64,000 bases of DNA from positions 1-64,000 of the IMG/VR virus record IMGVR_UViG_3300020428_001187. One strand, 5' to 3'. The notes under the pieces were generated by a model that searched no databases, was not told where the DNA came from, and was given only the letters and a program-made list of their open reading frames with translations. The stretch's first letter is position 1. Every line of letters starts with the position of its first letter. Below are positions 1 to 21,237 of this stretch, piece after piece. The stretch comes from a virus. The position numbers and the translations under genes were made by a program.

Positions 1-438
1 TGGGAGGAATATTATGAACGAAGTAAACGATTTAGTGATAGGGGCCTTCATGTTACACTCAAGCCTCAGTCTGATCCTACTGCTAGTTTTGTTGTGGGTG
101 GTTATACGGAAGCCCAAAAAGAAATTTTACGAACCGAAAACCAACAAGACGGTTACCAAGTCGCATTATATGATGCTAAAGGAATAGAATACTGGATTGA
201 TCAAGCAGAAAGATTAAACGCATACGGATTTAACAAATTTAAAGGTTGGATGTGTAACAGTGGATATCAAAGTTGTATTATAAGAAGCAATGAAGTGAAA
301 CGTGCATATAGTTGCCATGATGAACCTTTAGGCACGTTAGAAGAAGGATTTAAGCTGTTTAATGCACCAATGCCTTGTATAACTCCAACGTGTGTTAGTA
401 GTGCAGACAGTAAGATACCAAAGGAAAAGAATGTATAA
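1..438 (+). CDS. Radical SAM/SPASM protein, C-terminal part (5' end outside window)
   Basis: The reading frame is open from base 1, so the start lies upstream; the GTG at 94 is only an internal codon. The visible end carries widely spaced cysteines (WMCNSGYQSCIIRS, YSCHDEPLGT, PCITPTCVSSAD), the pattern expected of a SPASM/twitch-type auxiliary Fe-S cluster at the C-terminus of radical SAM enzymes. The CxxxCxxC core would be outside the window. It overlaps the next gene, another radical SAM enzyme, by 8 bp. The specific reaction is unknown. The family assignment rests on the cysteine layout and context. Confidence 0.6.
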   Translation, partial: WEEYYERSKRFSDRGLHVTLKPQSDPTASFVVGGYTEAQKEILRTENQQDGYQVALYDAKGIEYWIDQAERLNAYGFNKFKGWMCNSGYQSCIIRSNEVKRAYSCHDEPLGTLEEGFKLFNAPMPCITPTCVSSADSKIPKEKNV

Positions 439-1423
439 GTTAGAAGATATAAAATCGATACACTTAGAAGTTACTTCTAAATGCCAAGCGAAATGTCCTA
501 TGTGTGCTAGACGTGTGCATGGTGGTCCTTTACTTGACTCTATCACTTTGGCAGAAGTTAATATAGAATTATTTAAAAAATGGTTCAGTGTAGATTTTAT
601 AAAACAACTATGGCATCTTAATATGTGCGGTAACCTAGGTGATCCTATTGTTGCAAAGGATACATTAGAAATATATCAGTACCTAAGAAGAAATAATGAA
701 ACAATGGGTTTAACAATGCACACTAACGGAAGTGGTCGTGTAGCACAATGGTGGAGAGAACTTGCAAAAATAAAAGTTGTGGCGGCATTTGGTATTGACG
801 GATTAGAAGATACACACTCAAGATATAGAGTAAACACAAACTGGAACAAAATTATAGACAATGCAAAAACATTTATTGAAGCCGGCGGAGAAGCACGTTG
901 GGATATGTTAGTCTTTCAACACAATCAACATCAACTTGAAGACTGTCGTGCGTTATCTAAAGAATTAGGTTTTAAAGAGTTTCAAGTAAAACATACAACA
1001 CGTTTTAGAGATGGAAAGTTTGATGTTATAGATGAAAACTGGAATAAAGTTGATACGTTATATCCGTCAGATAAAAGTTTAGAAATGATAGCACCAGCTG
1101 AAGCGGCCAGAGAAGAAAAATTACCAAAGATTAATTGTAAAGCAGTTGAAGATCATATGTTATATATTAGTGCAGGTGGTGATGTTGCTCCTTGCTGTTG
1201 GTTAGATTTAAAATGGATGCCTCAACTGTTCCCAAGTAAGATGGATTATATGATGAAAGTTAAAAGGTTTCCTAACTTACACGACGAAAGTTTAAAAGAA
1301 ATATTTGATAGTGGGTTCTTTGACTTAATAAGCAGTCAATGGTCAACTTGTGGATTAAAAGAATGTTCAAAACAATGTGGAAGTTTTGATAAGTTACGTG
1401 AACAATTTGTGGAGAAGAAATGA
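431..1423 (+). CDS. Radical SAM protein with C-terminal SPASM-like cysteines
   Basis: The protein has 330 residues. ATG 431 is chosen over an upstream in-frame ATG at 392 because AAGGAAAAG lies directly before it and it overlaps the previous stop by only 8 bp. The radical SAM signature CQAKCPMC is near residue 19, so the enzyme should bind a 4Fe-4S cluster and cleave S-adenosylmethionine. The C-terminal part has CK..., PCCWLD and CGLKECSKQCG, a SPASM-type auxiliary cluster. It is closely similar in layout to the gene at 12535-13530 (shared FGIDGLEDTH/FSIDGLEDTN and RW-M-VF-HN-HQL stretches), so the two are probably paralogues. Substrate unknown. Confidence 0.85.
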   Translation: MYKLEDIKSIHLEVTSKCQAKCPMCARRVHGGPLLDSITLAEVNIELFKKWFSVDFIKQLWHLNMCGNLGDPIVAKDTLEIYQYLRRNNETMGLTMHTNGSGRVAQWWRELAKIKVVAAFGIDGLEDTHSRYRVNTNWNKIIDNAKTFIEAGGEARWDMLVFQHNQHQLEDCRALSKELGFKEFQVKHTTRFRDGKFDVIDENWNKVDTLYPSDKSLEMIAPAEAAREEKLPKINCKAVEDHMLYISAGGDVAPCCWLDLKWMPQLFPSKMDYMMKVKRFPNLHDESLKEIFDSGFFDLISSQWSTCGLKECSKQCGSFDKLREQFVEKK

Positions 1424-2163
1424 AAATAACGATTGCAGGGTATGGAGCAGTAGGACAAGCACATCATAAGGTGTTTGGAGGTCATTACGACATAGAAATA
1501 TATGATCCGTTTAAAGGATACAAAGATATGAGTAGTGATACGGAAGGATTAATTGTATGTACAGCAACACCGTCATATGAAAACGGTGCTTGTTTAATTA
1601 ATAGTGTATATGATGTAATAGAACGTTCACCTAAAGTACCTGTTATAATAAAGAGTACAATTAGTTTAGAAGGTTGGGAAACATTAATGGAACACTTTCC
1701 AGATAGGGATATAACATTTAGCCCAGAGTTTCTACGCAACAATACAGCAGAACAGGATCTATTGAATACAAAGGATTTTATGTTTGGTGGCGGAAACATA
1801 AACTTTTGGCAGTCAGTCTTTGTTAATGTATTAGGTAATATTAGCATTGGTATTGCAGATCCACGTGAATTAATACTAGTTAAATACTTTCGTAATAGTT
1901 TTTTAGCAAACAAGGTTGCATTCTTTAATCAAGTATATGACTTATGTGAAGCAACAGGTATTAACTATGATGCAGTTGCAACAGGTATAGGTGCAGATAA
2001 ACGCATAGGTACAAGTCATACCGAAGTTACAAAAGAAAGAGGCTTTGGTGGACATTGTTTTCCTAAAGATATACAAGCAATAATTTATACCGCAAAACAA
2101 AATGGTGTTGATTTAACCTTGTTAAAAGAAGCATTGGAGTATAACAAGAAAGTTAGAAAATGA
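1420..2163 (+). CDS. UDP-glucose/GDP-mannose dehydrogenase-like, shortened
   Basis: The 247 residues open with a Rossmann NAD-binding motif (GYGAVG, 7-12). They then show SPEFLR (101-106), a conserved Lys in RNSFLANK (near 165) and GFGGHCFPKD with the candidate catalytic Cys213. These are hallmarks of nucleotide-sugar 6-dehydrogenases, which oxidise UDP-sugars to uronates in two NAD-dependent steps. Typical enzymes have about 400 residues. This one ends just after the catalytic cysteine region and lacks the C-terminal nucleotide-sugar-binding domain, so activity or substrate may differ. The start overlaps the previous stop (ATGA), which suggests translational coupling. Confidence 0.8.
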   Translation: MKITIAGYGAVGQAHHKVFGGHYDIEIYDPFKGYKDMSSDTEGLIVCTATPSYENGACLINSVYDVIERSPKVPVIIKSTISLEGWETLMEHFPDRDITFSPEFLRNNTAEQDLLNTKDFMFGGGNINFWQSVFVNVLGNISIGIADPRELILVKYFRNSFLANKVAFFNQVYDLCEATGINYDAVATGIGADKRIGTSHTEVTKERGFGGHCFPKDIQAIIYTAKQNGVDLTLLKEALEYNKKVRK

Positions 2164-2540
2164 TAGCAAGAGTAATTTTATTTTTATATATAATGATGTT
2201 TCCTGCAAATGCAATAGAGTTGCAAAAGTTTTACAAAGAACCTTTAACAGAAACTGATAAGAAAGGTATCATTGCTTTTAATATATTACAAACAATAGAT
2301 ATGTTACAGACTTTAGAAATAGCAAACAATGACAACTATTATGAAAAGAATAAAATATTAGGTAAGCACCCAAATGAGTTTCAAGTTATAACTTATTTTA
2401 TTGCTAGAGGATTTGCACACTATGAAGCAACAAAGATGATACCTGAAAAGTATAGAGCTATATGGCATACGTATAACATTGTTTATAATTATGATGTTAT
2501 CAGAGATAATCATAATATAGGAATAAGAATAGGCTTTTAA
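2160..2540 (+). CDS. Small exported or membrane-anchored protein, unknown
   Basis: The 126 residues start with a hydrophobic segment (VILFLYIMMFPANA) followed by a possible signal peptidase site (ANA-IE), so export is likely. The remainder is mostly helical with the conserved-looking stretches NILQTIDMLQTLEIA and FIARGFAHYEATKMIP. No catalytic motif is visible. The start overlaps the previous stop (ATGA) and its TAA overlaps the next ATG (TAATG), so it belongs to the same operon. I do not recognise a characterised family. Confidence 0.65.
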   Translation: MIARVILFLYIMMFPANAIELQKFYKEPLTETDKKGIIAFNILQTIDMLQTLEIANNDNYYEKNKILGKHPNEFQVITYFIARGFAHYEATKMIPEKYRAIWHTYNIVYNYDVIRDNHNIGIRIGF

Positions 2541-3145
2541 TGAAAATAGATATCAATGATATAAAGTATTGGATGGACGCAATTCGTAACAGCGAAGACA
2601 AGGATCGTACACTTGAAAGTTTCTGGGGTGGACAGATCAAGAGTAAGCTGTGGTTGATTGAAGCACTTGAAAAACATAAGTCAATTAGAAACGCAGAGTG
2701 CGTAATACATGGAGGGTGGAATGGTGTATTAGCTTGTATGATGTTTAATAGTGAACTAGGAATTAAACATATCACAAGTATTGATATAGATCCCAAGTGT
2801 CAAGAAATTGCTAGTATGATGAATAAACGTTATGAGATGGAAGGTAAGTTTGAAAGTGTAACTTCTGATATGTGTGACTATGAATATAAAAGAGAACCAT
2901 ACTTTGTTATTAATACAAGTTGTGAACACATTACAGAAGAACAATATAATGTTTGGTTAGGTAATGTACCTGATGGAGCACAAATTATTTTACAAAGTAA
3001 TAACTACTTTGAGCATAAAGAACACGTAAACTGTATGAAAGATCTAGCAGAATTTAAACGCAAGTCTAAACTAAACGTATCTGAAGAATCAGAATTAGAA
3101 TTGCCTAAGTACACAAGGTATATGCTAATAGGAAGAAAACAATGA
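2540..3145 (+). CDS. Class I SAM-dependent methyltransferase-like protein
   Basis: The 201 residues include a glycine-rich stretch (VIHGGWNGVLACM, about 54-66), an acidic end of strand 2 (ITSIDIDPKCQEIA, about 78-91) and an acidic TSDMCDYEY segment (about 108). This order fits motif I, the ribose-binding acidic residue and motif II of a Rossmann methyltransferase. The glycine motif is degenerate (GGWNG instead of GxGxG). Acceptor unknown. It sits directly before hemC with ATGA coupling. Confidence 0.6.
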   Translation: MKIDINDIKYWMDAIRNSEDKDRTLESFWGGQIKSKLWLIEALEKHKSIRNAECVIHGGWNGVLACMMFNSELGIKHITSIDIDPKCQEIASMMNKRYEMEGKFESVTSDMCDYEYKREPYFVINTSCEHITEEQYNVWLGNVPDGAQIILQSNNYFEHKEHVNCMKDLAEFKRKSKLNVSEESELELPKYTRYMLIGRKQ

Positions 3146-3978
3146 AAGTCAAACTAGGTTGTAGAGGTAGCGAACTGTCATTAGCTATGGCAGAACTAGT
3201 AACTAAAAAACTAGAACAGCTAGACTGTACTGTAGAAATAGTTCCTATAAAGTCAGACGGAGATATTCATGAACATAAAGTTATCGCTGACATAGGCGGC
3301 AAAGGAGTATTTTGTAAACGTATAGAAGATGAATTGTTTAACGGAACTATTGATATTGCAGTACACAGCACAAAAGATTTACCAACTATAATGCCCAAGG
3401 AGTTAATTCTTGCAGGAGTACTGAAACGTAATGATCCAAGAGATTGTGTAGTAGGAAAACTACACCCTGGTGCAGTAGTAGGAACAGGATCACCAAGAAG
3501 ATTAGAACAGCTTACACTAATAGATGAATCATTAGTAGTAAAACATATTAGAGGTAATGTACCAACAAGAATTAGAAAAGTAGAAAACGGTGAGTATGAT
3601 GCAGTTGTACTGGCAAGATCTGGAATAGAGATATTAGGTTTACAAGATCATATTACACATACGTTTGGATTTGATAAAATGTTACCAGCAGTTGGACAAG
3701 GTGTTATTGCTATACAGACACGTACTATGAGCCCTTACACAGCTCTAGTAAGGCAAATAAATCATCTGGATACATTTTATTGTGTATTAGCAGAACGTAC
3801 AGCATTGAAGTTTGTAGACGGTGATTGTCATAGTGCAATAGGTATACTTGCACAAACAACAGGTGATTGCATAACACTACAAGCGATTAATTATAACAAT
3901 ATGAAAGACTGTACTGTTACAGGAAAAATATTAGACTATAAAAAAATAGGTGAACAAGTAGGAAAAGCGATAGTATGA
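3142..3978 (+). CDS. hemC: Hydroxymethylbilane synthase (porphobilinogen deaminase)
   Basis: This enzyme joins four porphobilinogens into the linear tetrapyrrole hydroxymethylbilane. Diagnostic motifs run through the protein: GCRGSELSLA (6-15), GGKGVFCKRIEDELFNG (52-68), DIAVHSTKDLPT with catalytic-type Asp79 (71-82), GTGSPRR (114-120), HIRGNVPTR (135-143), LPAVGQGVIA (181-190) and DGDCHSAIG with Cys229 in the position that carries the dipyrromethane cofactor. The 278 residues are slightly shorter than the usual ~310, mainly at the C-terminus. All substrate- and cofactor-binding blocks are present, so it is probably active. It lies in an operon of overlapping genes with radical SAM enzymes on both sides; no other tetrapyrrole gene is visible. 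Confidence 0.93.
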   Translation: MKVKLGCRGSELSLAMAELVTKKLEQLDCTVEIVPIKSDGDIHEHKVIADIGGKGVFCKRIEDELFNGTIDIAVHSTKDLPTIMPKELILAGVLKRNDPRDCVVGKLHPGAVVGTGSPRRLEQLTLIDESLVVKHIRGNVPTRIRKVENGEYDAVVLARSGIEILGLQDHITHTFGFDKMLPAVGQGVIAIQTRTMSPYTALVRQINHLDTFYCVLAERTALKFVDGDCHSAIGILAQTTGDCITLQAINYNNMKDCTVTGKILDYKKIGEQVGKAIV

Positions 3979-5288
3979 GTAAAACATTTTGCCCATTACC
4001 CTGGATACATTTAGCTACAAGACCTAACGGTGATGTTAGAGTTTGTTGTACTGCCAATGCCAGTGGTGCGGGTAAACAAGATGAAAAGACAGCAGGACTT
4101 GTTAAGAAAGATGGTATTGCTATGAACCTACGTGACCATACAATAGAAGAAGTATGGAATAGCGAACACATGAGAAGAACAAGATTACAAATGCTGAACG
4201 GTGAAATACCTAGTAGTTGTACAAAATGTTTTAGTGAAGAAGCAAAAGGTATTTCAAGTAAGCGTCTATGGGAAACTGAAGAATGGAAACAACGTGTAGA
4301 CTTTGATCAACTCATTGCTAGTACAAAAGAAGATGGTACTGCACCTGTAAGTATTCCTTACTTTGATTTACGTTTAGGTAACCTATGTCAACTTAAATGC
4401 GTTATGTGTAGTCCACATGATAGTTCAAGTTGGATTAAGGAATGGAAACTACAAATGCCACAGTATAAGAATAAAGATCTTATTGCAGATCAAGGTTGGG
4501 ACGATCAATTTGATTATACTTGGTATAAAAAAGGATCCTTCATAGATACAATGAAGCATCAAGCATTTAATATACAAGAATTATATTTTGCAGGTGGCGA
4601 GCCATTGTTAATACCAGAACATTATAAAATATTAGAGTTCATGGTTGACGAAGGATATGCCAAAGACTGTAACTTAAGATATAACTCAAATGGTTTAGAA
4701 TTGCCAGACAAGTTATTTAAGTTATGGCAACATTTTAAAGAAGTACGTTTTAACTTTAGCATAGATGCTTACGGAGAACGTAACGATTACATACGTTACC
4801 CAAGCAAGTGGTCGGACGTTGAAACTAATTTAAGAAGGCTAGATGAGAATACAAAGGATAATACAGTTATTAATATTGCCTGTGCAGTACAATTACTAAA
4901 TGTAGGTTACATAGATGAATTAGCTGAATGGAAAATGGATCAAGGCTTTAGCAAGATTAATCCTTCAATGTTTGGAGGAGGTATTATAGGAACACATTTG
5001 GTTTATTTGCCATCATATCTAAATGTACAAGTTTTACCACAGGAAGCAAAACTTTGGATAAAGGGCAAAGTAGAAAACTTCATAGATAGACAGAAGTTTA
5101 ATTTGGAATTCAACCAGCACCCATATGGTGCTCAACGTTGGAGAGGGTTGATTAAATACATGATGCAGGACGATTGGAGTAATAAGCTACCGGCTTTGCG
5201 TGAGTATTTGGCTGTAACTGATAAAACTAGAGGGACTGATTATAGCAAAACTTTTAAAGAATTAGGAGAATATATTAATGGACATTAA
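3975..5288 (+). CDS. Twitch/SPASM-type radical SAM protein
   Basis: The 437 residues begin with an N-terminal Cys region (FCPLPWIHLA, RVCCTANASG, SSCTKCFSEE) followed by the radical SAM motif CQLKCVMC near residue 138. Then come FAGGEPLL (about 206, SAM-binding GGE) and a TIM-barrel-like body. Cysteine motifs preceding the radical SAM core are also seen in the proteins at 7573-8691 and 11475-12545, so these three form a subfamily in the island. The expected chemistry is radical-based modification of a peptide or small molecule; the substrate is unknown. ATGA overlap with hemC. Confidence 0.85.
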   Translation: MSKTFCPLPWIHLATRPNGDVRVCCTANASGAGKQDEKTAGLVKKDGIAMNLRDHTIEEVWNSEHMRRTRLQMLNGEIPSSCTKCFSEEAKGISSKRLWETEEWKQRVDFDQLIASTKEDGTAPVSIPYFDLRLGNLCQLKCVMCSPHDSSSWIKEWKLQMPQYKNKDLIADQGWDDQFDYTWYKKGSFIDTMKHQAFNIQELYFAGGEPLLIPEHYKILEFMVDEGYAKDCNLRYNSNGLELPDKLFKLWQHFKEVRFNFSIDAYGERNDYIRYPSKWSDVETNLRRLDENTKDNTVINIACAVQLLNVGYIDELAEWKMDQGFSKINPSMFGGGIIGTHLVYLPSYLNVQVLPQEAKLWIKGKVENFIDRQKFNLEFNQHPYGAQRWRGLIKYMMQDDWSNKLPALREYLAVTDKTRGTDYSKTFKELGEYINGH

Positions 5289-5925
5289 TAGAGCGATGCT
5301 ATGGAACGGACTTACTAATTTAGGTGATACAGTTAAACTTAAATTAAAAGTTGATCCATGGGAATGTGTACGAGATTTAGAACAGTTTAAGGATAACTGG
5401 TGCCCGTACAATGTTAAGAAAGATAAAGTTAACAATAGATGGGGATTACCTATAACAAGCCATAGTGGTGATGTGATGGATAATTATCATCTGAATAGTT
5501 TTGGTCATATGCAACGTTATCATGATGTTGAAATGAAAGAAGAAAACTTCACAACTCCTACTGAAGTATATCATAAGATGCCTGAACTAGCAAAACTTGT
5601 TGATGTATTTTCACCAGACATTGGGCGTGTTCATTTATTACGTGTTGACCAAGGAGGATTCTTTCCTCCACATAGAGATTGGCCAGGAGCAGATCCAGAA
5701 TACTTTAGATTGCTTATGGTAATGGGAAATTGTAAACCTGAGAACTTTGTTCATATGCTTGACGGTAAGCCTATGTATCCAGATCCAGGATTTTTATATT
5801 TTATTAACTTTCAAAAAGATCATAGTGTGTTTAGTTTTAGTGACGGGCTATATGCTTTAATTTTAACAGTTAAGTTAAATGAACGTACACACGATCTTAT
5901 TATAAAACATAGTATGAGTGAGTAA
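5278..5925 (+). CDS. 2OG/Fe(II) oxygenase-like (Asp/Asn-hydroxylase type)
   Basis: The protein has 215 residues. A double-stranded beta-helix core is suggested by HLLRVDQGGFFPPHRDWPG (candidate HxD metal ligands), a central hydrophobic block, and a distal QKDHSVFSFSDG supplying the third histidine. This arrangement fits aspartyl/asparaginyl beta-hydroxylases. ATG 5278 follows TAGGAG and overlaps the preceding stop by 11 bp. It is flanked by two radical SAM genes, like the other oxygenases in this island. Substrate unknown. Confidence 0.6.
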   Translation: MDINRAMLWNGLTNLGDTVKLKLKVDPWECVRDLEQFKDNWCPYNVKKDKVNNRWGLPITSHSGDVMDNYHLNSFGHMQRYHDVEMKEENFTTPTEVYHKMPELAKLVDVFSPDIGRVHLLRVDQGGFFPPHRDWPGADPEYFRLLMVMGNCKPENFVHMLDGKPMYPDPGFLYFINFQKDHSVFSFSDGLYALILTVKLNERTHDLIIKHSMSE

Positions 5926-6863
5926 TGAAACTAGGCTACAAGGACATTACAAAGAACGATTGGTTTTTAGTTAGTTGGACACTATCTAATAAATGTAACT
6001 ATCGTTGTGAGTATTGTCCAGACATACTACATAATGGTAGTACAGGACAGCCACGTTGGGAAACTGTAGAACGTTTTATAAAAAATTTAAAAGTAAAAAA
6101 GGATATTTGTTTTAGAATAAGTGGCGGCGAACCTACATACTGGAAACATTTTATTGACATGGCCGAATGTGTTAAAGAACAAGGACATAAGTTTTCATTT
6201 GTAAGTAACGGTAGTCAAAGTCCGGAATACTTTAAACGTATTGCTCCTTTCACAGATGCTATGATGTTAAGTTATCATAAAGCATACGCAGACCCAGAGC
6301 ATTTTATAAAGGTTATTAATGAATCTAAAATTACAACAGTAATTAATATGATGTTGTTACCAGATGATTTCGATGAAGCATTTAGTATATCAGAAAAAAT
6401 CTTTAGTAGTACAGCTAACGCAACAATATGGCCAAAGGTAATTGTTGATAAAACGTATAGCGATAACATTACAAATGAAGTAGTTACTTACACAGACAAA
6501 CAAAAGGATCTAATAAAAAATTGGCCTTTTACTAGAAAGATTGATGATAAAGATGTACACAGAGGAAAGATGCAATTAAAACTTAATGATTGGTTTGAAG
6601 ATGCTAAAGACGTTGACGCTAATGAACTTATACTAGAAGGCAAGAATAAGTTTGTAGGTTGGAAATGTTGGGCTGGCATAGATGGTGTCAATATAGATAT
6701 GTGGGGTAATATGTATAGAGCAGACTGCCAATTCGGAGGAGCAATAGGTAACTTGGAAAGATATAAATTGCCTACAGAACCTATAGTTTGTGGTAAGAGT
6801 ATATGCAGTTGTTTAAGCGACATATACATAAGGAAGGAACAGGACGAATGGAAGATAACGTAG
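5925..6863 (+). CDS. Radical SAM protein
   Basis: The 312 residues carry the core motif CNYRCEYC near residue 24 and a SAM-binding FRISGGEPTYW near 64. The C-terminal part has GWKCWAGIDGVNIDMWG, then YRADCQFGG and CGKSICSC, cysteines that could bind an auxiliary Fe-S cluster. It is shorter than the twitch-type relatives in the island. TAATG coupling to the oxygenase upstream suggests that the two are made in similar amounts. Specific reaction unknown. Confidence 0.85.
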   Translation: MKLGYKDITKNDWFLVSWTLSNKCNYRCEYCPDILHNGSTGQPRWETVERFIKNLKVKKDICFRISGGEPTYWKHFIDMAECVKEQGHKFSFVSNGSQSPEYFKRIAPFTDAMMLSYHKAYADPEHFIKVINESKITTVINMMLLPDDFDEAFSISEKIFSSTANATIWPKVIVDKTYSDNITNEVVTYTDKQKDLIKNWPFTRKIDDKDVHRGKMQLKLNDWFEDAKDVDANELILEGKNKFVGWKCWAGIDGVNIDMWGNMYRADCQFGGAIGNLERYKLPTEPIVCGKSICSCLSDIYIRKEQDEWKIT

Positions 6864-7045
6864 CACTTGCTGAAGGAATGAATCAAATCTGGAACTGGCT
6901 CTGCGGTGTCTGTGGTTGGAGAGGTGTAGCACAGGATCTAGCAACAGATGATAACACAGATGAATGGTGGGTATGTCCTAAATGCAATAGCACAAATATT
7001 CAAGACATAGGTTGGCATAAAGGAAATAACAAACATCATGAGTAG
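6848..7045 (+). CDS. Small zinc-ribbon/rubredoxin-like protein
   Basis: The 65 residues have two CxxC knuckles, WLCGVCGW and WVCPKCNS, separated by about 25 residues rich in acidic residues and tryptophan. This is the pattern of a zinc ribbon or rubredoxin. ATG 6848 is preferred to the upstream ATG at 6803 because the longer form lies deep inside the radical SAM gene. A rubredoxin could deliver electrons to the radical SAM or Fe(II) enzymes nearby, but that role is inferred from context only. Confidence 0.6.
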   Translation: MEDNVALAEGMNQIWNWLCGVCGWRGVAQDLATDDNTDEWWVCPKCNSTNIQDIGWHKGNNKHHE

Positions 7046-7592
7046 AATATTAGTAACAGGAAATCCTAACTATGAAGGTTTATGCAAAGGTATTTACGAA
7101 GCATACAATAACAATAGGGTAGAATTCATAGGACGTCATAATGGCTGGGATATGAATGACGCAGAAAAAGTTGCCAACCATGCGAAAGACTTTGATGTAT
7201 TTGTAAACAGCTTGTATGGTCCAGATGGACAACAGAATAGAATACTAGAAGAAGTTTATAAAAAGTTTGAAAGAGGACACATAATAAACATAAGCAGTAC
7301 TAGTTCTTATTGGGAATCAGGTTATAGTCCTCAAAATTACATTGACAATAAAACATTATTAGACGGGTTGAGTAAGAAAATGAGTAATGATAGTTGTTGG
7401 GGTAACAGCGAAATAAAAGTTAGTAATATAGCATTTGGACAATTAAGTTCACAGAGTCAAAAAGAAAGAAAAGACAATAGGAATAAGATTAGTTTACAAC
7501 AAGCTGGACAGTTTGTTAAGTGGGTAATTGATAGTCCTACAGATATTAATATTCATTATATGGCAATGGATCCTATACAAAAAGATCAGTAA
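7038..7592 (+). CDS. Rossmann/SDR-like protein, unknown
   Basis: The 184 residues begin with RILVTGNPNYEGLCKGIYEA, a nucleotide-binding start in which the second glycine pair of the usual TGxxxGIG is altered. Later there is HIINISSTSSYW (Ser-rich strand typical of SDRs) and YIDNKTLLDGL, with Tyr and Lys three or four residues apart as in the SDR YxxxK motif. It resembles the protein at 17130-17711 in size and layout. It is the last gene of the + strand operon and overlaps the convergent gene by 20 bp. Confidence 0.5.
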   Translation: MSRILVTGNPNYEGLCKGIYEAYNNNRVEFIGRHNGWDMNDAEKVANHAKDFDVFVNSLYGPDGQQNRILEEVYKKFERGHIINISSTSSYWESGYSPQNYIDNKTLLDGLSKKMSNDSCWGNSEIKVSNIAFGQLSSQSQKERKDNRNKISLQQAGQFVKWVIDSPTDINIHYMAMDPIQKDQ

Positions 7593-13530: not shown

Positions 13531-13574
13531 ACTGTATTTAACGTCATAAACAGAGTATTTAATGGGGTTGTGGC

Positions 13575-13582: not shown

Positions 13583-13587
13583 TGTGT

Positions 13588-14283
13588 ATGCAAGAACTAC
13601 ACCAATTTCATGATACAAATGGTATAATAAAGACTCAAAAATATCCAGAACAGTTCGATCCAAAGTGGATTGTAACGGAAAGTGGATGGCCTTATTTTCG
13701 TCTAAGTGCTTTAGATAACCAACCTTGGAAGGGTATGTACCATGAAGCGGAAAACTTAATAGATTCTTTTCATGAACACAGAGAAGAATACGGAAAAGGG
13801 TGGCGTAGTTTAACACTACACGGATTAAATGAAGATACACAGAGCCTTGACAGCTATGGAGATAGACAAGACTCTATCAAACAGTTAGATTGGACCTGGG
13901 TAGCTGATAAATGTCCTGAAACTAAAAAGTTTTTAACTGATGTTTGGCCAGCAGAGTATCTAAACCGTGTGCGTTTCATGTTGCTTGAACCAGGTGGATA
14001 TATATTACCACATCAAGACAGAGATGATTCAGAAAAACGTTTAAGTGTTTGCAATATTAGTTTAAACAATCCAGAAGGTTGTGATTTTGTTTTTAAAGAT
14101 CATGGTAAAGTTCCTTTTGAAGATCAAGGTAGTGCGTTCTTAATGGATATTAGTAACGTTCATAGTGTATGGAATAGAAGTGATAAGCCACGCATACATA
14201 TGATTATACATTATGAGTTAGGAAGACGTATTAGAGATTTCTTTTATGTGTTAAGACAAAGTTATTTCACCAATAGGGGTTAA
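13588..14283 (+). CDS. Aspartyl/asparaginyl beta-hydroxylase-like 2OG/Fe(II) oxygenase
   Basis: The 231 residues carry the facial triad of the Asp/Asn hydroxylase family. LEPGGYILPHQDRD gives HxD, and NVHSVWNRSDKPRIHMIIHY gives the distal His and the 2-oxoglutarate-binding Arg. Such enzymes hydroxylate Asp or Asn side chains or small molecules using O2 and 2-oxoglutarate. In-frame starts exist at GTG 13570 and ATG 13582, but ATG 13588 is chosen because a late-promoter-like octamer lies exactly 5 nt upstream. It begins the second + strand operon of the island, divergent from the radical SAM genes. Confidence 0.75.
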   Translation: MQELHQFHDTNGIIKTQKYPEQFDPKWIVTESGWPYFRLSALDNQPWKGMYHEAENLIDSFHEHREEYGKGWRSLTLHGLNEDTQSLDSYGDRQDSIKQLDWTWVADKCPETKKFLTDVWPAEYLNRVRFMLLEPGGYILPHQDRDDSEKRLSVCNISLNNPEGCDFVFKDHGKVPFEDQGSAFLMDISNVHSVWNRSDKPRIHMIIHYELGRRIRDFFYVLRQSYFTNRG

Positions 14284-14284
14284 T

Positions 14285-15775
14285 ATGAAAGATTGGAATT
14301 CAGTTTCAGTAGACAGATACTATGATACCCTTAATGTAGGTAACGAAGTAGCCATTGGCATACTTGATATTTCACGAGATATTCCAGATAAGTTTGTACA
14401 AAAACGTTGTTTTGACATGACATACTTTTATATTAATCGTATGATTAAGATGGGGTATTGTAAGTATGTAGGATCTAGTAATAGTGTTAAAACTATTTTA
14501 GAAAATGCAATCAAAGAAGATAAAAAGTATTGCATGATTGCCGCACAGGGATTACTATTAACTAGAGGACCAAGCCTCTTAGATCAAAGTTTAAGTTACG
14601 CAAAAGATAATCCTAATTTCTTTGTTGTAGGTCATATCATGGACAAAACAAAACAACATTACCTTACAAAAGGTGCGTATCCAGGATTACATAGACAGTA
14701 TCTATTTGTAAACGTAGACAAGTGGGTAGAACTAGGTAAGCCAGAGTTTGACGAGATTGGTGTTTATAAAGATAGAAAGCCCAAGTTACAAAACTTTAAA
14801 TTAAGTGAAGAAACTGTTCATGCTGATTATACACCTGCTTGGATTGACTTTGCTGAATCACAAAAACAATGGGAAATAACTTCAGACGGATCTAATTGGA
14901 TTGACATAGCCTTAAGAGAAGGCATAAGAATAGATAACTTAACTAGCGATATGAGAGCTTGTAAAATATTTTTATATCCGTATAACAAGTCAGATATATT
15001 ATCAAAGAGCTGGATACACAAAGATTATTGGCAAGTAGATGAATTAAATCAAAGCCAAAAGGCTTGGTTACGCAAACTAGACTATCAAGAGAAGATAGAA
15101 AAGAATCGTGTTTATGCTTTTAACACAGAAACACTTTCAAGCGAAGGAATACGTACAACACAACCTATTGAACATTTGTTTAGTGCGGCCGCAGGATTTA
15201 AACCACTTGCAATATTAAACGCAAATAGATTTCATGATCGTACAATGGAACACCCTGGTACTAAGGTACATTACTTTGATTGGTGTGATGCTAGTTTATT
15301 GTATAAAAGAGACCTAATAGAAACATGGGATGGCTACGATTTACACCTATGGCTATTGGAACACGACCTAAACTATAACTTCAGTTCAACATATAGAGGC
15401 AATTACGAGTCGTTTTGGTTACAAGAAGTTGAAGAACATGGTGGTAGAGAAGCATTTAAAGAGCTATGGGATAGATATGTAGAACTAGATCATGCTTACT
15501 ATAAGATTGATATTGTAAATGAACCAGAAGAACTATTTCATATAATTAATGCACAACAAGGTAACAAAGTGTTATGGACTACAAACATTTGGTCAAGCGA
15601 AATGCTTCATTGGAATTTAGAACCAGAAGTATTAGAAAACAAGTTTAAAAAATTTAGAGAACTAGTACCTAATGATTTAATATTATATGGTCACGATTAT
15701 GTTGCAATGGATTTAAGACAAAGTATAAGGAACACAGATGGAACAACACACCCAAGATTTCAAACGGTACATTGA
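14285..15775 (+). CDS. Large unknown protein of the oxygenase cluster
   Basis: The 496 residues form no family I can name. The N-terminal half has an alternating strand/helix pattern (KYCMIAAQGLLLTRG, NFFVVGHIMD, YPGLHRQYLFVN), which resembles a nucleotide-binding or GT-A-like fold. The second half includes FKPLAILNAN and KVHYFDWCDASLLYKRDL, a possible second Rossmann-like domain. It starts 1 bp after the oxygenase upstream, and the next oxygenase begins 38 bp before its end, so it is part of the same unit. Either a two-domain transferase or the modified substrate is conceivable; neither is shown. Confidence 0.55.
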   Translation: MKDWNSVSVDRYYDTLNVGNEVAIGILDISRDIPDKFVQKRCFDMTYFYINRMIKMGYCKYVGSSNSVKTILENAIKEDKKYCMIAAQGLLLTRGPSLLDQSLSYAKDNPNFFVVGHIMDKTKQHYLTKGAYPGLHRQYLFVNVDKWVELGKPEFDEIGVYKDRKPKLQNFKLSEETVHADYTPAWIDFAESQKQWEITSDGSNWIDIALREGIRIDNLTSDMRACKIFLYPYNKSDILSKSWIHKDYWQVDELNQSQKAWLRKLDYQEKIEKNRVYAFNTETLSSEGIRTTQPIEHLFSAAAGFKPLAILNANRFHDRTMEHPGTKVHYFDWCDASLLYKRDLIETWDGYDLHLWLLEHDLNYNFSSTYRGNYESFWLQEVEEHGGREAFKELWDRYVELDHAYYKIDIVNEPEELFHIINAQQGNKVLWTTNIWSSEMLHWNLEPEVLENKFKKFRELVPNDLILYGHDYVAMDLRQSIRNTDGTTHPRFQTVH

Positions 15776-16391
15776 AAAACATGAACCTCTTGACTTAGGC
15801 TTTAAAGTTAAGAAACTGTTTGAAGTTGATGTAGATAAAATACAAACTTGGTATAAAGACCTTGAAGAAAATTTTTCTGATTGGAAGTTTGTTATAGGTG
15901 AGAATCATCATGTGTGGAAGTTTCCTATTAGTGACCCTGAAGCAAAGACAGGACATTACTTGCCAGACGATGCGGCCTATTATACACTTTGTTGGAACAG
16001 TGATGAACCAGGACCTAAACCTTTTGAACAAGGTTGTGCAAAAGAAGAATACAAAGATAACGATAACGATGAACTAAATCCTCGTAAATGTTTTACTGGT
16101 TACGGACTAGAGCTTGTAGAAAAATTACCTATGCGTAGTAAGAAGTGGTTAGTAACTATACACACGCCAGGTACTAAACTAATTACGCATCAGGATAGCA
16201 CAGATAAGATTAGAGTACACATACCTATACACACCAATGAAGATAGTAATTGGATCATAGGCGGAGAAGAGTTTCATATGGAACCAGGTTGGGCTTATCT
16301 AGTAAACACAACAATTCCTCATAGTGTGGAAAACAAAGGTAGTACAAATAGAATACATCTATATGGAAAGGTTTGGACCAATGACATATAG
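15738..16391 (+). CDS. 2OG/Fe(II) oxygenase-like (Asp/Asn-hydroxylase type), tandem paralogue 1
   Basis: The 217 residues contain TPGTKLITHQDST (HxD), RVHIPIHTN, MEPGWAYLVNT, IPHSVENKG (distal His) and RIHLYG (2-oxoglutarate Arg). The same order of blocks recurs in the genes at 16381, 17695 and 18282, so this is a tandem family. ATG 15738 has an AAGGA Shine-Dalgarno and overlaps the preceding gene by 38 bp. The N-terminal parts of the four proteins differ, which suggests that they act on different positions or substrates. Confidence 0.75.
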   Translation: MEQHTQDFKRYIEKHEPLDLGFKVKKLFEVDVDKIQTWYKDLEENFSDWKFVIGENHHVWKFPISDPEAKTGHYLPDDAAYYTLCWNSDEPGPKPFEQGCAKEEYKDNDNDELNPRKCFTGYGLELVEKLPMRSKKWLVTIHTPGTKLITHQDSTDKIRVHIPIHTNEDSNWIIGGEEFHMEPGWAYLVNTTIPHSVENKGSTNRIHLYGKVWTNDI

Positions 16392-17133
16392 TTTAGAATA
16401 TTTAAATAGCAAGGATTGGGATATAATAGAATTAGATTGGAATCTTGATTCTTTATTCTTACAAAGCTGGTATGAGCAAGTACATGAGCAATACAATCAT
16501 CTATATTTTAGTTGGCGTAAAGAAGAATATTTAAAAGAGAAATATCATTTAAAAAACATAGACACAGCATTTGCAGGAGAAGTAGGATCAGAAGGCAGAG
16601 GTGTACATGATGAAGGGTATCATATAATAAAATATATTAAGGATCAATTAGAAATACCAGAAGAAATATTAGTAATGGAGATCAGTTGGTATTGCGAAAA
16701 GGAAATTCCTTGTACTCCTAAATGGGCAGGAAGAGAAGACCTATATCCAGAACTAATTAATCCAGGTGAAAAATCTGTTCAGGAAAAGTTTAAGTTCGGA
16801 TACTTTAAAAAATTATATGATCAACTAGGTGAAGCTGTATGGAGAGATACAAGTATTAGACATCATCAACCTGGTGTTGTATTAGGAAAACACATCGACG
16901 GGCCAGACGTACAACGATTGCACATACCAGTAGACAGTGATCCAAATGCTTTATTCTTGTACGGAGAAAATTTAGAAAGAGAATATAACATGAAGCCAGG
17001 CAAGGCTTATGTAATTAATGCCGCTATTCCACATGGTACAATTAATAAAAGTAAAGAAAGTAGGGTGCATATACAAACAAAACCTACACACGAAAACTTA
17101 TTAAAGATACTTAACAAGGAAATAACTTTATGA
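16381..17133 (+). CDS. 2OG/Fe(II) oxygenase-like, tandem paralogue 2
   Basis: The 250 residues carry HQPGVVLGKHIDGPD (HxD), RLHIPVDSD, MKPGKAYVINA, IPHGTINK (distal His) and SRVHIQTK (Arg). ATG 16381 is chosen, although in-frame ATGs at 16324 and 16363 lie inside the upstream gene. The overlap is then 11 bp. It shares the HIP...PHGT core with the neighbouring oxygenases. Substrate unknown. Confidence 0.72.
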   Translation: MTYSLEYLNSKDWDIIELDWNLDSLFLQSWYEQVHEQYNHLYFSWRKEEYLKEKYHLKNIDTAFAGEVGSEGRGVHDEGYHIIKYIKDQLEIPEEILVMEISWYCEKEIPCTPKWAGREDLYPELINPGEKSVQEKFKFGYFKKLYDQLGEAVWRDTSIRHHQPGVVLGKHIDGPDVQRLHIPVDSDPNALFLYGENLEREYNMKPGKAYVINAAIPHGTINKSKESRVHIQTKPTHENLLKILNKEITL

Positions 17134-17711
17134 ACGTAGCGATAACAGGTAGTAGAAAAGGAATTAGACATTCGGGTAGTTACATACTCAATTGGCTACA
17201 TGACTATTTTGCCAAGTTATCTAAGTACCAAGGTTATAATGTAACGCAATTAAGCAGAGAAACAGGGTATGATTTTAATGAAAACTTTGACGATATTGTA
17301 AATGAAATATTAAAAAATGATGTGTTTGTTAATGCTAGTTGCATAGACGACTATCAAATAAAACTTTTAAATGCAGTATACGGTAAAGTAAAACATATTA
17401 TTTGTATAGGTAGTATTGCTGGAGACTTTAATACTGACGAAGATTATGCTAGAGTAAAACGCAATCTAAAGCAAAGATGTAAGATGCTACCTATTGAAAC
17501 ATTAAATACACATACGAATCTATTTCACATGACAATAAGCGAAGTAGAAAAAGACGGTAAAGGAATGAGTCAAGAAGAGTTTAACAAAGTGCTAGACTTT
17601 TGGTTTGAAAATCCTACAATAGCAAATATTGACTTTAAGCATTATGTTGAAAGTTATGATGATTGGAAGAAAGAAAAAATAAAAAGGATAGTAGATGAAC
17701 AGAGATCTTAG
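17130..17711 (+). CDS. Rossmann/SDR-like protein, unknown
   Basis: The 193 residues begin NVAITGSRKGIRHSGSYIL, close to the SDR TGxxxGIG signature but with the third glycine replaced. HIICIGSIAGDF has the Ser of an SDR catalytic strand, and EDYARVKRNLKQ contains Tyr-x3-Lys. It resembles the protein at 7038-7592, and both lie beside 2OG oxygenases or radical SAM genes. ATGA overlap with the upstream oxygenase and a 17 bp overlap with the next. NAD(P)-dependent redox or dehydration activity is possible. Confidence 0.55.
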   Translation: MNVAITGSRKGIRHSGSYILNWLHDYFAKLSKYQGYNVTQLSRETGYDFNENFDDIVNEILKNDVFVNASCIDDYQIKLLNAVYGKVKHIICIGSIAGDFNTDEDYARVKRNLKQRCKMLPIETLNTHTNLFHMTISEVEKDGKGMSQEEFNKVLDFWFENPTIANIDFKHYVESYDDWKKEKIKRIVDEQRS

Positions 17712-18285
17712 AGTACTAAAGCCTAGAATAGATATAAACGAGTTACGAAACTTCTTTATAAGTCTCCAGCATGACCATAATGATATGAGGTGGGTATGGG
17801 AAGGCAATGAAGAAGAAGGAGTTGGTGGACATAAACTTAAAGGAGTAACCGGTTGGGCATTACAAAGTAATCTAGAAGATCTAACTAAACCTTGTCCTCC
17901 TTATAATATCACTAAAGAAGAAAAACAGGAATATAAAGATACTAAATGTATGTTTGGATTAGCAAAGAAGTTACAGGAAAAGTTTCCGTTCGCACATCAG
18001 TTTAGTGTAAGTGTACACCCGCCAGGAGCATTAATAAACTTTCACAAGGATACTGATGATTATCTAAAGGTGCATATTCCTATAGTAACTAACAAGAAAG
18101 CATATTTTACGTTTGAACCTAATAGGAAATACGTATTACCTGCTGATGGGCGTATGACTCTTGTTAATACTAGCATACCACATGGTACACATAATGAAGG
18201 CGAAACAGATAGAGTTCATTTGTTTTTTAAAGTTCCTAAAGACAAGGAAATGGAATTGCTTAAATACAAAGAGGAAACACTATGA
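17695..18285 (+). CDS. 2OG/Fe(II) oxygenase-like, tandem paralogue 3
   Basis: The 196 residues contain PPGALINFHKDTDD (HxD), KVHIPIVTN, TLVNTSIPHGTHNEG (distal His) and DRVHLFFK (Arg), the same block order as its neighbours. ATG 17695 follows AAAGGATAGTAG, a good ribosome-binding site. The N-terminal region is shorter than in paralogues 2 and 4. Confidence 0.75.
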   Translation: MNRDLRVLKPRIDINELRNFFISLQHDHNDMRWVWEGNEEEGVGGHKLKGVTGWALQSNLEDLTKPCPPYNITKEEKQEYKDTKCMFGLAKKLQEKFPFAHQFSVSVHPPGALINFHKDTDDYLKVHIPIVTNKKAYFTFEPNRKYVLPADGRMTLVNTSIPHGTHNEGETDRVHLFFKVPKDKEMELLKYKEETL

Positions 18286-18986
18286 TAATCAAAAATTACG
18301 ATCCTAAAGACATTGGTTGGAAAATGCTATATGAAGAAGATCATTGGGGAGCGATAGAATTAAATTTAGATCTTGATGTAGATAAACTACAAAAGTATTA
18401 CTCTGATGTAAAGAAAAAATTTAATCATATGTATTTTGATTTCTATAACTTTCCTGATAGATTAAATGTTGAAGTTAGTAAACAATATATGGACTTAGGT
18501 TATTGTGGTTACTACTGCGGTCCTATTAGTGGATACACACTAGCATGGCCAAAAGAAAGATACGAACCATTACCTCCTCCTAGTCAAGCTAATACAGATA
18601 TGTTTCCTGAAACACTTGACCCAGAATTTTATGATAAGTGTAATATATTGCCTAAGTATCGTTTTGATTATATGAATGATTTAATCGAAATGCTAGGAGA
18701 AGAAAGTTTTAAACAATGTATAATCACAGTACACGGTCCTGGTGCAGAAATTAAAACACATAAAGATAGTAGTGTAAAGAAATTACATATACCTTTAGAA
18801 ACAAACGAAGAAGCAGTTTTTTGTTTTGGAAAAGATAGAGAAGTAAAGTATAATATGAAAGTTGGCAAAGTTTACATATTAAATACCAATGCTTACCATG
18901 GAACAGAAAATCCAGGTAAAACTGATAGAGCTCACTTTTTAACTAGAGTAGACGAAACTAAAATTTTAGATATATTAGCATTATGA
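18282..18986 (+). CDS. 2OG/Fe(II) oxygenase-like, tandem paralogue 4
   Basis: The 234 residues contain GPGAEIKTHKDSS (HxD), KLHIPLETN, MKVGKVYILNT, YHGTENPG (distal His) and DRAHFLTR (Arg). Overall it is most similar to paralogue 2 (shared FGKD/YGEN-RE--YNMK-GK-Y stretch). It overlaps both neighbours by 4 bp (ATGA), so it is tightly coupled to the halogenase-like gene that follows. Confidence 0.75.
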   Translation: MIIKNYDPKDIGWKMLYEEDHWGAIELNLDLDVDKLQKYYSDVKKKFNHMYFDFYNFPDRLNVEVSKQYMDLGYCGYYCGPISGYTLAWPKERYEPLPPPSQANTDMFPETLDPEFYDKCNILPKYRFDYMNDLIEMLGEESFKQCIITVHGPGAEIKTHKDSSVKKLHIPLETNEEAVFCFGKDREVKYNMKVGKVYILNTNAYHGTENPGKTDRAHFLTRVDETKILDILAL

Positions 18987-20089
18987 AAATAACAATAGTA
19001 GGTGGTGGAACAGCTGGTTGGATGACTGCAAGTTATCTTGCAAAGAAAACTGATTGGAACATCACTGTAATACAAAGTGAAGATATTCCTATAATAGGTG
19101 TAGGCGAAAGCACGTTGCCTAGTATGTACGACTTTATTACAGAACTAGGACTAACAGAACAAGACCTATTTGACCATTGTGATGCAGTAAGAAAATATAC
19201 AATATGTCATAAGGATTGGCACAACAAAGAATGGTGGCACCATTTCTGCTTTGATGAGTCTGAACATAGAGAACAGATTGAATGGATGCGTAATTATACA
19301 AAGCCTACTAAAAAGTGGCGTCATGCTTATCATGTTGATGCTAACAAGTTTGGTATTATGCTGAGAGATAAGGTTGCACTACCAAACGGTGTAGAACTTA
19401 TTAATAAAACACTTGATACTATAGACGACCTTGATGCAGATTTAATTATTAATTGTGCTGGATTTAGTGATCTGTTTCCTGCAAAAGAAATGATTAAAAC
19501 TAACCTAAAAAATAATTGTGCCATAGTTGCACCTAGTTACGATAAGATGTTAAAATACTATACGGAAACTACTGCATTAAGTAACGGGTGGATGTGGAAT
19601 ATTTACTTACAGAATCGCATTGGAAACGGATATGTGTTTAGTAAAGATCATCAATCAGTAGAAAGTGCCAAAGCAGAATTTATAGAAAAATGTCCTCACA
19701 AATTAGAACTAGATAAGTTAAGAGTGATTGAATGGGAAAGTCAATATTGTCCTAACCCCTACGAAGGTAACATTTTAAATATAGGATTAAGTGCAGGATT
19801 TATTGAACCGTTAGAAGCTCAAGCAATATGGCTAATACAATATCAAATTGAAATGCTAGTAAGACTAGTGGACAAACCTAGTGTGTATAACAAGCAATGG
19901 TTAAACGTAGTAAAACACGTAGAAGAATTCTTAGAACTTCATTATACTGCTACAAGTAAAGACACAGACTATTGGAAAAATGAAATGAAAGAAATTGTAA
20001 TTAAAAAGAAACCTTTTACAATTTTTGATCAATATTCTTATCGCTCTTTAGCGAGAGGTTACGCTCTTCCTTATAACGTTGAACATTAA
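18983..20089 (+). CDS. Flavin-dependent tryptophan-halogenase-like protein
   Basis: The 368 residues start with the FAD-binding motif IVGGGTAGW (5-13) and the halogenase/FAD motif GVGESTLP (39-46). Lys71 (AVRKYTICHKDW) aligns with the catalytic Lys79 of PrnA as far as I can align by eye. GWMWNIYLQNRIGNGYVFS (202-220) matches the WxWxIP halogenase signature with Ile-Tyr in place of Ile-Pro. GFIEPLEAQAIW (272-283) carries the conserved Glu. Characterised halogenases have about 510-540 residues, so this is shortened. No flavin reductase gene is nearby, so reduced FAD would come from the host. It ends the + strand operon and overlaps the convergent GNAT gene by 74 bp. Confidence 0.8.
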   Translation: MKITIVGGGTAGWMTASYLAKKTDWNITVIQSEDIPIIGVGESTLPSMYDFITELGLTEQDLFDHCDAVRKYTICHKDWHNKEWWHHFCFDESEHREQIEWMRNYTKPTKKWRHAYHVDANKFGIMLRDKVALPNGVELINKTLDTIDDLDADLIINCAGFSDLFPAKEMIKTNLKNNCAIVAPSYDKMLKYYTETTALSNGWMWNIYLQNRIGNGYVFSKDHQSVESAKAEFIEKCPHKLELDKLRVIEWESQYCPNPYEGNILNIGLSAGFIEPLEAQAIWLIQYQIEMLVRLVDKPSVYNKQWLNVVKHVEEFLELHYTATSKDTDYWKNEMKEIVIKKKPFTIFDQYSYRSLARGYALPYNVEH

Positions 20090-20588
20090 TACGCCATAAG
20101 TTCTGCGGTACATTATATAATTCTATTTGTTGATCTAAAGACCAAATACCACGTTTAGCTAGTAATGGCATCATAGTATTATTCATACGTTGACTCTTAC
20201 CACCATCGTCGTTTATATTTGTACTAATAAACAAGTCTGCTGACTTAGGTGCCCATTCTATTTGTAAGTTTAGTAAGTAACTTAATTGTATACCTGTCTT
20301 AAAAATATCTCTTCCTGTACCTAGTGTGTATCCTGGTAGTTGAGCTCCGCGGAACAAACATCTATAACAGTTATGTCCAGCTTCAGGCAAGTCATGAATA
20401 CCTGCAATACTAATAATTTTATCTTCATGAATTGCAACAGTCCATGCACCATTGCGTAGGCACCATTCCCATTTCATTGCTTCTAAAGATGTATTGTTTG
20501 AATAGTTCTGTGATTTACAAAACTGTTCTACTAAAGGTCTATCTCTTTCAGTAGCAAGTCTAAAAGTTGTTTTTCCAAGTATGTCCAT
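20016..20588 (-). CDS. GNAT-type acyltransferase-like protein
   Basis: The 190 residues begin TTFRLATERDRPLVEQF, typical of the first strand and helix of the GNAT fold, and continue with WTVAIHEDKIISIAGI as the beta-strand pair. The acyl-CoA-binding loop is not a clean RxxGxG; LPGYTLGTGRDIFKTG is the best candidate. It overlaps the adenylation gene upstream by 29 bp and the convergent halogenase gene by 74 bp. Together with the adenylation enzyme it could transfer an activated acyl group, which is inference. Confidence 0.55.
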   Translation of the reverse strand: MDILGKTTFRLATERDRPLVEQFCKSQNYSNNTSLEAMKWEWCLRNGAWTVAIHEDKIISIAGIHDLPEAGHNCYRCLFRGAQLPGYTLGTGRDIFKTGIQLSYLLNLQIEWAPKSADLFISTNINDDGGKSQRMNNTMMPLLAKRGIWSLDQQIELYNVPQNLWRINVQRYKEERNLSLKSDKNIDQKL

Positions 20589-21237
20589 TTGCTTCTTTTA
20601 ATCTACCGTGGTATTCTTTTGTGTCCATGTTAAAAATATCACCAGTTGATCTGCCGTTGATAATACAATGTTGAAGGTTAGTGCCAGTAGCTTGTAATGG
20701 CATAAACATCACATGATTCTCTTGATGATTTATAGTGTTGAAATCAAATGCAGGTGAATCATAACCTATCATAATTGGTGGAGGAAACTCAGTCATGCCG
20801 TACCAGTTCGCGACTTTTTGAACTCCCTTATTTTTAAATTCATCTATAAAATTTTGGTCTATTTTTGAACTGCCTGTAACCATGTATTTGACGCAACTCA
20901 TATCCAAATCCTTAAAGCCTTTAGTGCCTAATAACAGTTCTAAATGACGTGGTATTAACGCAATATACGTCGGTTTAAAGCGTCTAAATAAGTCGAGGTA
21001 GGTGTATGCACTAAAGTTGCTAGAAACGTACTGTGCGCCGCTTAAAAACGCAGGAACACCGGTGATTGTGTAGTGGGCTATAGTGTTCGCAGGAAACACA
21101 TCTAGCACTCTATCCTCTTCAGTCAATCCAATTTCTTTAATGCTTTTGGTCGCACATTTCTTAATATGATCCCACGAATGGGTCACGTCTTTTGGTTGGT
21201 CTGTTGACCCTGATGTAAAGAGAGTTATAGAGCTCAT
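20560..21237 (-). CDS. Minimal AMP-binding (adenylation) enzyme
   Basis: The 225 residues keep the core motifs of acyl-CoA synthetases and NRPS adenylation domains in the right order. These are TSGSTDQPKDVTHS (A3 P-loop, 8-21), YGMTE (A5, 146-150), STGD (A7, 197-200) and HGRLKEANG (A8, 210-218). Family members have about 500 residues. Here the N-terminal third and the C-terminal domain with the A10 lysine are missing. It may activate a carboxylate as an acyl-adenylate for the GNAT-like protein encoded next. The start is preceded by AATAAGTA-N5-ATG and no Shine-Dalgarno. Confidence 0.72.
   Translation of the reverse strand: MSSITLFTSGSTDQPKDVTHSWDHIKKCATKSIKEIGLTEEDRVLDVFPANTIAHYTITGVPAFLSGAQYVSSNFSAYTYLDLFRRFKPTYIALIPRHLELLLGTKGFKDLDMSCVKYMVTGSSKIDQNFIDEFKNKGVQKVANWYGMTEFPPPIMIGYDSPAFDFNTINHQENHVMFMPLQATGTNLQHCIINGRSTGDIFNMDTKEYHGRLKEANGHTWKNNF

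Follow-up and report, generated by a model that had tools for sequence, protein, structure and literature searches.

What does a phage modify with a battery of radical S-adenosylmethionine (rSAM) enzymes, a series of 2-oxoglutarate oxygenases and a halogenase, all encoded side by side between its fibre genes? The question is raised by positions 1 to 64,000 of the IMG/VR virus record IMGVR_UViG_3300020428_001187 (68,244 bases), the stretch analysed here and referred to as the window. The original prediction, made from the letters alone, had described positions 1-21237 as a dense tailoring island, reminiscent of peptide-tailoring or natural-product clusters, with a virion protein, a glycan or DNA as the possible substrate. 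Our tentative answer, to which we assign a probability of roughly 0.38, is that the island, as part of the host-recognition region, encodes a glycan-tailoring pathway expressed late in infection, with the phage's own adhesion fibres as the most likely acceptor. Sequence upstream of the window was taken from an overlapping contig, G001 (~100% identity across the shared stretch), and upstream coordinates are negative, counted back from window base 1. Features are collected in Table 1, where "by inspection" denotes a call made from reading the sequence.

The island is a conserved block of about 40 genes and about 41 kb that sits between tail-fibre genes in a family of large, uncultured marine phages. 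It starts about 12 kb before the window, or about 19 kb before it when the flanking fibre genes are counted; the window thus shows about half of it, and the glycosyltransferase-type genes upstream lay beyond the reach of the original prediction. The upstream half, read from G001, supplies an eighth rSAM gene, a GT-A-fold glycosyltransferase gene and its paralogue, two glycosyltransferase-like genes, three SGNH-like genes and a second sugar dehydrogenase gene. At the left border, a cluster of three fibre-type paralogues, one of them bearing a tail-collar domain, and a gene for a 4,911-aa protein precede the island, and at the right border lies fibre gene g28. Neighbouring genes abut or overlap, as had been noticed, leaving one noncoding base in 1-21237. 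Most island proteins had no match in PHROGs.

Homologues of g07 are encoded on at least 143 viral contigs. In the contig G002 (267,783 bases), the counterpart of the island runs from fibres at 139 kb to g28 at 182 kb and is collinear with it almost throughout at 40-90% identity, the halogenase, GNAT and AMP-ligase genes included. Matches to g01, g02, g05, g09, g12, g15, g16, g17 and g18 were found in each of the 17 loci with coverage on both sides, with the caveat that either of the paralogues g02 and g17 may stand in for the other. HemC, the sugar dehydrogenase g03, the propeller-like pair g13/g14 and the g19-g28 interval are variable among relatives. This interval behaves as a slot that is empty or holds NTP-transferase-like, HAD and TauD genes, PP-loop and GNAT genes, or a unit of oxygenases, halogenase, GNAT and AMP-ligase. 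The last is nearly all-or-none: the 22 loci with a halogenase have the GNAT in 22, the ligase in 21, the fibre in 21 and the oxygenases in 20 cases, and the exceptions include truncated loci. Because gene order is maintained in relatives, the island is not a chance assembly. The claim of one coherent tailoring island therefore stands, with a fixed core and swappable cassettes, and comparison of neighbourhoods did not find the genes scattered or independently inherited. As to individual variable genes, HemC (g06) is alone in the phage and occurs in 5 of 17 fully covered relatives, with a class-III aminotransferase gene nearby in some (L015, L103). The g13/g14 pair (8688-11064, minus strand) is kept in 10 of 17 covered islands and lies outside known families; a PDB sequence search with g14 gave no match. 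The 4,911-aa protein, encoded in a single reading frame beside the fibre genes (L112/L113, about -33.7 to -18.9 kb), shows 60% identity in G002.

All seven rSAM genes initially counted in the window were borne out. PF04055 scored above its cut-off in six (431, 3975, 5925, 7573, 11475, 12535), and g01, truncated at the window edge, supplies the C-terminal portion of the seventh, whose N-terminus with CxxxCxxC lies just upstream on the overlapping contig. This motif is intact in all eight rSAM proteins of the island (seven in the window, one upstream). With a curated cut-off of 170 bits, g07, g12 and g16 are members of N_Twi_rSAM (NF033640), and g02, at 42 bits, is not. Models for maturases of ribosomally synthesized and post-translationally modified peptides (RiPPs), at the equivalog level, scored far under their cut-offs for all four rSAM proteins tested. 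G002 also carries, behind a late-type motif, an A-type Fe-S carrier gene (PF01521; 250974-251297, minus strand, L200), whose product could supply clusters to rSAM enzymes.

Six oxygenases had been proposed; five of them (13570, 15738, 16381, 17695, 18282) score above the PF05118 cut-off and possess the H-x-D...H...R motif. The sixth, g08 (5278), fails the PF05118 score and is a diverged homologue of g18 (26% identity, E 2e-7), with H-x-D and the distal His present. The halogenase (g25; PF04820, E 6.6e-69), HemC and the UDP-sugar dehydrogenase were likewise confirmed by Pfam; GxGxxG and FIEPLE are present in g25, with WMWNIY in place of the WxWxIP of flavin-dependent tryptophan halogenases and the Lys position judged by eye. 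Pfam gave no support for the GNAT (g26), the methyltransferase (g05) or the short-chain dehydrogenase/reductase (SDR) at 17130 (g22), and only a weak match for the SDR at 7038. The adenylation enzyme does match an AMP-binding domain, although g27 (225 aa) covers only its middle third and lacks the C-terminal subdomain. Since g27 is conserved across 52 contigs, it is probably no decaying remnant. Elsewhere in the window, one open reading frame (ORF; 35976-37157, minus strand) has matches to endonuclease V as well as to a 2OG-Fe(II) oxygenase family, an apparent fusion.

How are these enzymes linked to a glycan? The model of u-1197 (pLDDT 90) has a GT-A fold, with the fucosyltransferase WrtF as its best Foldseek match (E 6e-5) and a VIA Z of 11.7 to B4GALNT1, and D57 and D59 of its DxD are invariant. 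Both hallmarks of a GT-A enzyme, fold and DxD, are thus present in u-1197, of which u-8566 is a paralogue. The first domain of g19 is GT-A-like in an AlphaFold2 model (pLDDT 73, Z ~10), and a PDB sequence search with g19 gave no match. Two UDP-sugar dehydrogenases (g03 and the one at -3179) lie in the block, and the islands of some relatives hold epimerase, DegT aminotransferase, HAD phosphatase, NTP-transferase-like and amidinotransferase-like genes. An independent phage, Vibrio phage K566, also combines the two enzyme types, its four rSAM genes alternating with two of the GT8 family and one that is GT4-like. Given the GT-A enzymes, the sugar dehydrogenases and these sugar genes of relatives, "natural-product-like" is a less apt description than "glycan-linked". 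Among the island proteins scanned, g04 alone has a signal-peptide-like N-terminus, no flippase or polymerase was seen, and export proteins are almost absent.

The timing of expression is suggested by a T4-type late-promoter motif, ATAAATA, which is rare. In 107.6 kb, 14 of its 15 copies sit 8-90 nucleotides upstream of a same-strand gene start (4.5% expected), as do 41 of 54 copies upstream of gene starts in G002 (4-5% expected), and the genes downstream include the tail sheath (G002) and fibres. A divergent pair of motifs at -3.2 kb stands in front of the main rSAM operon and of the neighbour running the other way, and recurs in all 11 distinct regions that share this arrangement. A single motif before g28 heads the fibre-ligase-GNAT operon and is kept in 8 of 8 relatives. 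Late transcription of the main rSAM and fibre-ligase operons is accordingly predicted, though not proven. A strict motif at the g17/g18 junction was considered as a general feature and rejected: only 4 of 23 relatives have it, and most have degenerate forms.

In the pathway that we favour, the nucleotide-sugar enzymes and GT-A glycosyltransferases would assemble a short glycan, which the twitch and SPASM rSAM enzymes and the 2-oxoglutarate oxygenases would edit at unactivated C-H positions (by oxidation, epimerisation, hydroxylation or deoxygenation). The swappable cassette of halogenase, AMP-ligase and GNAT would add halogenation and an acyl or amino-acyl decoration. The glycan would most likely be carried by the adhesion fibres of the phage itself, and progeny would then bear an unusual chemical decoration that alters receptor binding or conceals the fibres. 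We infer a glycan as the product and as the target of the rSAM enzymes and oxygenases; fibres are favoured as its acceptor because of the late motifs, the fibre genes on both flanks and the scarcity of membrane proteins. The specific form of this proposal, in which rSAM enzymes, dioxygenases and halogenase edit a glycan attached to the tail fibres of the phage itself as a radical-chemistry virion decoration that changes with the cassettes, is somewhat doubtful.

Several observations weigh against fibre glycan tailoring. None of the island enzymes has a known substrate; several glycosyltransferase calls were made by inspection only, and g19 lacks a DxD. Four of 14 sequences preceding the sugar dehydrogenase of the main operon are differently arranged and lack the motif. 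In most relatives a strict late motif is missing both from the g18 operon and from the rSAM operon at 13593-7573, and no late motif was found beside the rSAM genes of phage KVP40. The presence of the cassette is uncorrelated with the sequence of g28 (up to 64% identity to the window g28 without it, as low as 33% with it), which weakens g28 as the specific substrate. The bacterial neighbours of the rSAM family (99 proteins) are mixed, namely carbamoyltransferase, NDP-hexose dehydratase, GT2, QueC-like and housekeeping genes, and were not decisive as to the substrate. In Vibrio phage K566, moreover, LpxC and PagP are encoded close to the rSAM and glycosyltransferase genes, pointing to lipid A.

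This last arrangement leads to the alternative that the host surface glycan or lipid A is remodelled instead, either to block superinfection or, being late, to keep progeny off debris. The PagP and LpxC homologues of K566 (L111, 18718-19984) adjoin the rSAM-glycosyltransferase cluster. Together with the opinion expressed in two papers on sugar genes, those of pelagimyophage host-recognition clusters (PMC7029224) and of cyanophages (PMC7824862), K566 favours the host envelope, and glycosyltransferases and sugar enzymes in the island are as expected for it. However, the main rSAM and fibre-ligase operons lie behind late promoters, fibre genes stand on both flanks and, apart from the signal-peptide-like g04, the island has no membrane protein, flippase or polymerase. 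We consider conversion of the host envelope somewhat less likely than modification of the fibres.

Less probable again is a secondary-metabolite or peptide-type pathway, whose small product (a modified amino acid, amino sugar or peptide) would be active in the infected cell or after lysis. The halogenase, AMP-ligase, GNAT and oxygenases do move together, a cluster in cyanophage S-SSM6a was interpreted as one for a halogenated metabolite (PMC7824862), and two bacterial isolates have rSAM pairs beside acyl carrier protein or NDP-hexose dehydratase-type genes. Yet no carrier domain or exporter was seen, and the AMP-ligase is without its C-terminal subdomain. A RiPP-like peptide cluster in particular was rejected: as the original prediction had remarked, no precursor peptide is evident; none occurs among the ORFs, the one noncoding base leaves no room for another, and the scores of the four rSAM proteins tested are not of maturase level.

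Direct modification of residues in fibre or other virion proteins by the rSAM and Asp/Asn-hydroxylase-like enzymes, with no glycan, is improbable. The fibre neighbourhood and late promoters would suit it, PF05118 includes protein Asp/Asn hydroxylases, and SPASM rSAM enzymes frequently act on peptides; but PF05118 also includes lipid A hydroxylases, and glycosyltransferases and sugar enzymes are found in the same block. That the island merely stores auxiliary genes, each serving a function of its own, would account for the HemC, PP-loop, TauD and aminotransferase cassettes that come and go, and is made very improbable by the core shared by all 17 fully covered loci, the fixed order and the nearly all-or-none halogenase unit. 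DNA hypermodification is the least credible of all: some phages do modify DNA with glycosyltransferases and 2-oxoglutarate oxygenases, but the main operon promoters are late and not early, the oxygenases here are of PF05118, and the island lies between fibre genes and distant from replication genes, so that DNA, among the substrates first proposed, is disfavoured.

Table 1. Genes and motifs of the island, in window coordinates (negative values lie upstream of the window)
Feature	Position	Strand	Assignment
Two GT-like genes	-11649, -10626		glycosyltransferase-like, by inspection; upstream of window
u-8566, u-1197	-8566, -1197		GT-A-type paralogous pair; upstream of window
Eighth rSAM	-7688		upstream of window
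Three SGNH-like genes			upstream of window
Sugar dehydrogenase	-3179		the island's second; upstream of window
g01	1..438	+	rSAM C-terminal part (~317 aa whole; N-terminus upstream); homologous to g09
g02	431..1423	+	rSAM, C-terminal SPASM; PF04055, PF13186; paralogue of g17
g03	1420..2163	+	UDP-sugar/GDP-mannose dehydrogenase-type; PF00984; variable among relatives
g04	2160..2540	+	126 aa; signal-peptide-like N-terminus; variable
g05	2540..3145	+	methyltransferase-like by inspection, no Pfam match; core, 17/17 fully covered loci
g06	3142..3978	+	HemC, porphobilinogen deaminase; PF01379 E 2e-63; variable
g07	3975..5288	+	N-terminal-twitch rSAM; NF033640 421.8 bits; core
g08	5278..5925	+	diverged Asp/Asn-hydroxylase-like oxygenase; E 2e-7 to g18, H-x-D retained
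g09	5925..6863	+	rSAM; PF04055; core
g10	6803..7045	+	80-aa Cys-rich protein, zinc-ribbon-like by inspection; variable
g11	7038..7592	+	SDR-like; PF00106 weak, E 0.002
g12	7573..8691	-	N-terminal-twitch rSAM; NF033640 237.4 bits; core
g13	8688..9827	-	repeat protein, beta-propeller-like by inspection; homologous to g14
g14	9820..11064	-	repeat protein; paralogue of g13
g15	11033..11488	-	small APH/choline-kinase-like; PF01636 E 0.0014, under cut-off; core
g16	11475..12545	-	N-terminal-twitch rSAM; NF033640 231.5 bits; core
g17	12535..13593	-	rSAM with SPASM; PF04055, PF13186
g18	13570..14283	+	Asp/Asn-hydroxylase-type oxygenase; PF05118 E 1e-13; core
Late-promoter-type motif, g17/g18 junction	13575..13582	+	strict form in only 4/23 relatives
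g19	14285..15775	+	N-terminal GT-A-like domain without DxD, then second domain; frequent among relatives
g20	15738..16391	+	PF05118 oxygenase; cassette
g21	16381..17133	+	PF05118 oxygenase; cassette
g22	17130..17711	+	SDR-like by inspection, no Pfam match
g23	17695..18285	+	PF05118 oxygenase; cassette
g24	18282..18986	+	PF05118 oxygenase; cassette
g25	18983..20089	+	short flavin-dependent halogenase; PF04820, phrog_2928
g26	20016..20588	-	GNAT-like by inspection, no Pfam match; adjoins halogenase in 22/22 loci
g27	20560..21237	-	compact AMP-binding (adenylation) fragment; PF00501 positions 168-330 of 384
g28	21282..22652	-	tail fibre, Mtd_N domain PF18454; same strand as g27-g26, upstream of both
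Predicted late promoter TATAAATA	22680..22687	-	fibre-ligase-GNAT operon; kept in 8/8 relatives

Related rSAM genes also occur outside this phage family. Two matches in bacterial genomes (L129, L137) are probably phage contigs, as these genomes also hold a homologous phage tail sheath. Chromosomes of predatory Bdellovibrionota carry arrays of related twitch rSAM genes with g18- and g19-like genes (Bdellovibrionia loci L144/L153 on JAUICP010000002.1, L146 and L147), and in one of them an amidinotransferase-like gene adjoins dnaG/rpoD-like genes. The phage sheath protein had no match in the five array-bearing Bdellovibrionota genomes tested, which suggests that these arrays are a cellular counterpart of the phage module. 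Related rSAM genes are present as well in 40 Vibrio phages, including KVP40. Those of K566 (24% identity to g07), adjoining GT8/GT4-like genes, and of KVP40, adjoining a QueC-like gene, are of the same broad type as those of the island; both phages differ from it in having few rSAM genes, and no oxygenase or halogenase cassette was seen in them.

The DNA polymerase (PolB) is closest to those of the large-genome phages Phosso and Atu_ph07 (47-50%), which places the phage in a T4-superfamily lineage with a large genome and not, on proof, among the pelagimyophages. Within that superfamily, the Campylobacter phages CP220 and CPt10 encode 11 and 12 rSAM proteins, with swappable five-rSAM modules that include a putative glycine amidinotransferase, and a metabolic benefit at low oxygen was proposed for CP220 (Timms 2010, PMC2853527). 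An amidinotransferase-like gene is, by inspection, also present in marine relatives and in one Bdellovibrionia cluster. A homologue of the halogenase g25 is encoded by CP21, a phage related to CP220; unlike in the island, the genes for halogenase, UDP-glucose dehydrogenase and rSAM proteins lie scattered there. The host-recognition cluster of pelagimyophages is a large variable region with tail fibres, glycosyltransferases, rSAM cassettes and, in one type, porphobilinogen deaminase (PMC7029224), whereas the rSAM core described here is stable and collinear. A T4-like environmental genome, TARA_ERS488813_N000010, has 12 rSAM genes and an A-type Fe-S carrier, the latter shared with G002; the available excerpt of its description reports them as Fe-S gene content and describes no island, promoters or function (PMC5332604). 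It may belong to the same lineage as the window phage. The cyanophage clusters, a halogenase with several 2-oxoglutarate oxygenases in S-SSM6a and glycosyltransferase and nucleotide-sugar genes in P-SSM2, resemble the island as far as they are described in the passage of PMC7824862 on them, where no rSAM enzymes are named.

The island is thus less of an undescribed system than first thought, as rSAM-rich phages have been reported since 2010, although, in the literature found, no function was shown for their rSAM sets (PMC2853527, PMC5332604, PMC7029224). New here are a core conserved among relatives, a cassette gained or lost nearly as a whole, and the association of the rSAM genes with late promoters and with glycosyltransferases. 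For phages with a dozen rSAM genes, these promoters, the glycosyltransferases and the recurrence of the core narrow the question of function to sugar modification of virions or of the host envelope. If fibre glycan tailoring is true, many new glycan enzymes that functionalise C-H bonds could be drawn from these phages, whose host recognition would then be diversified by chemistry.

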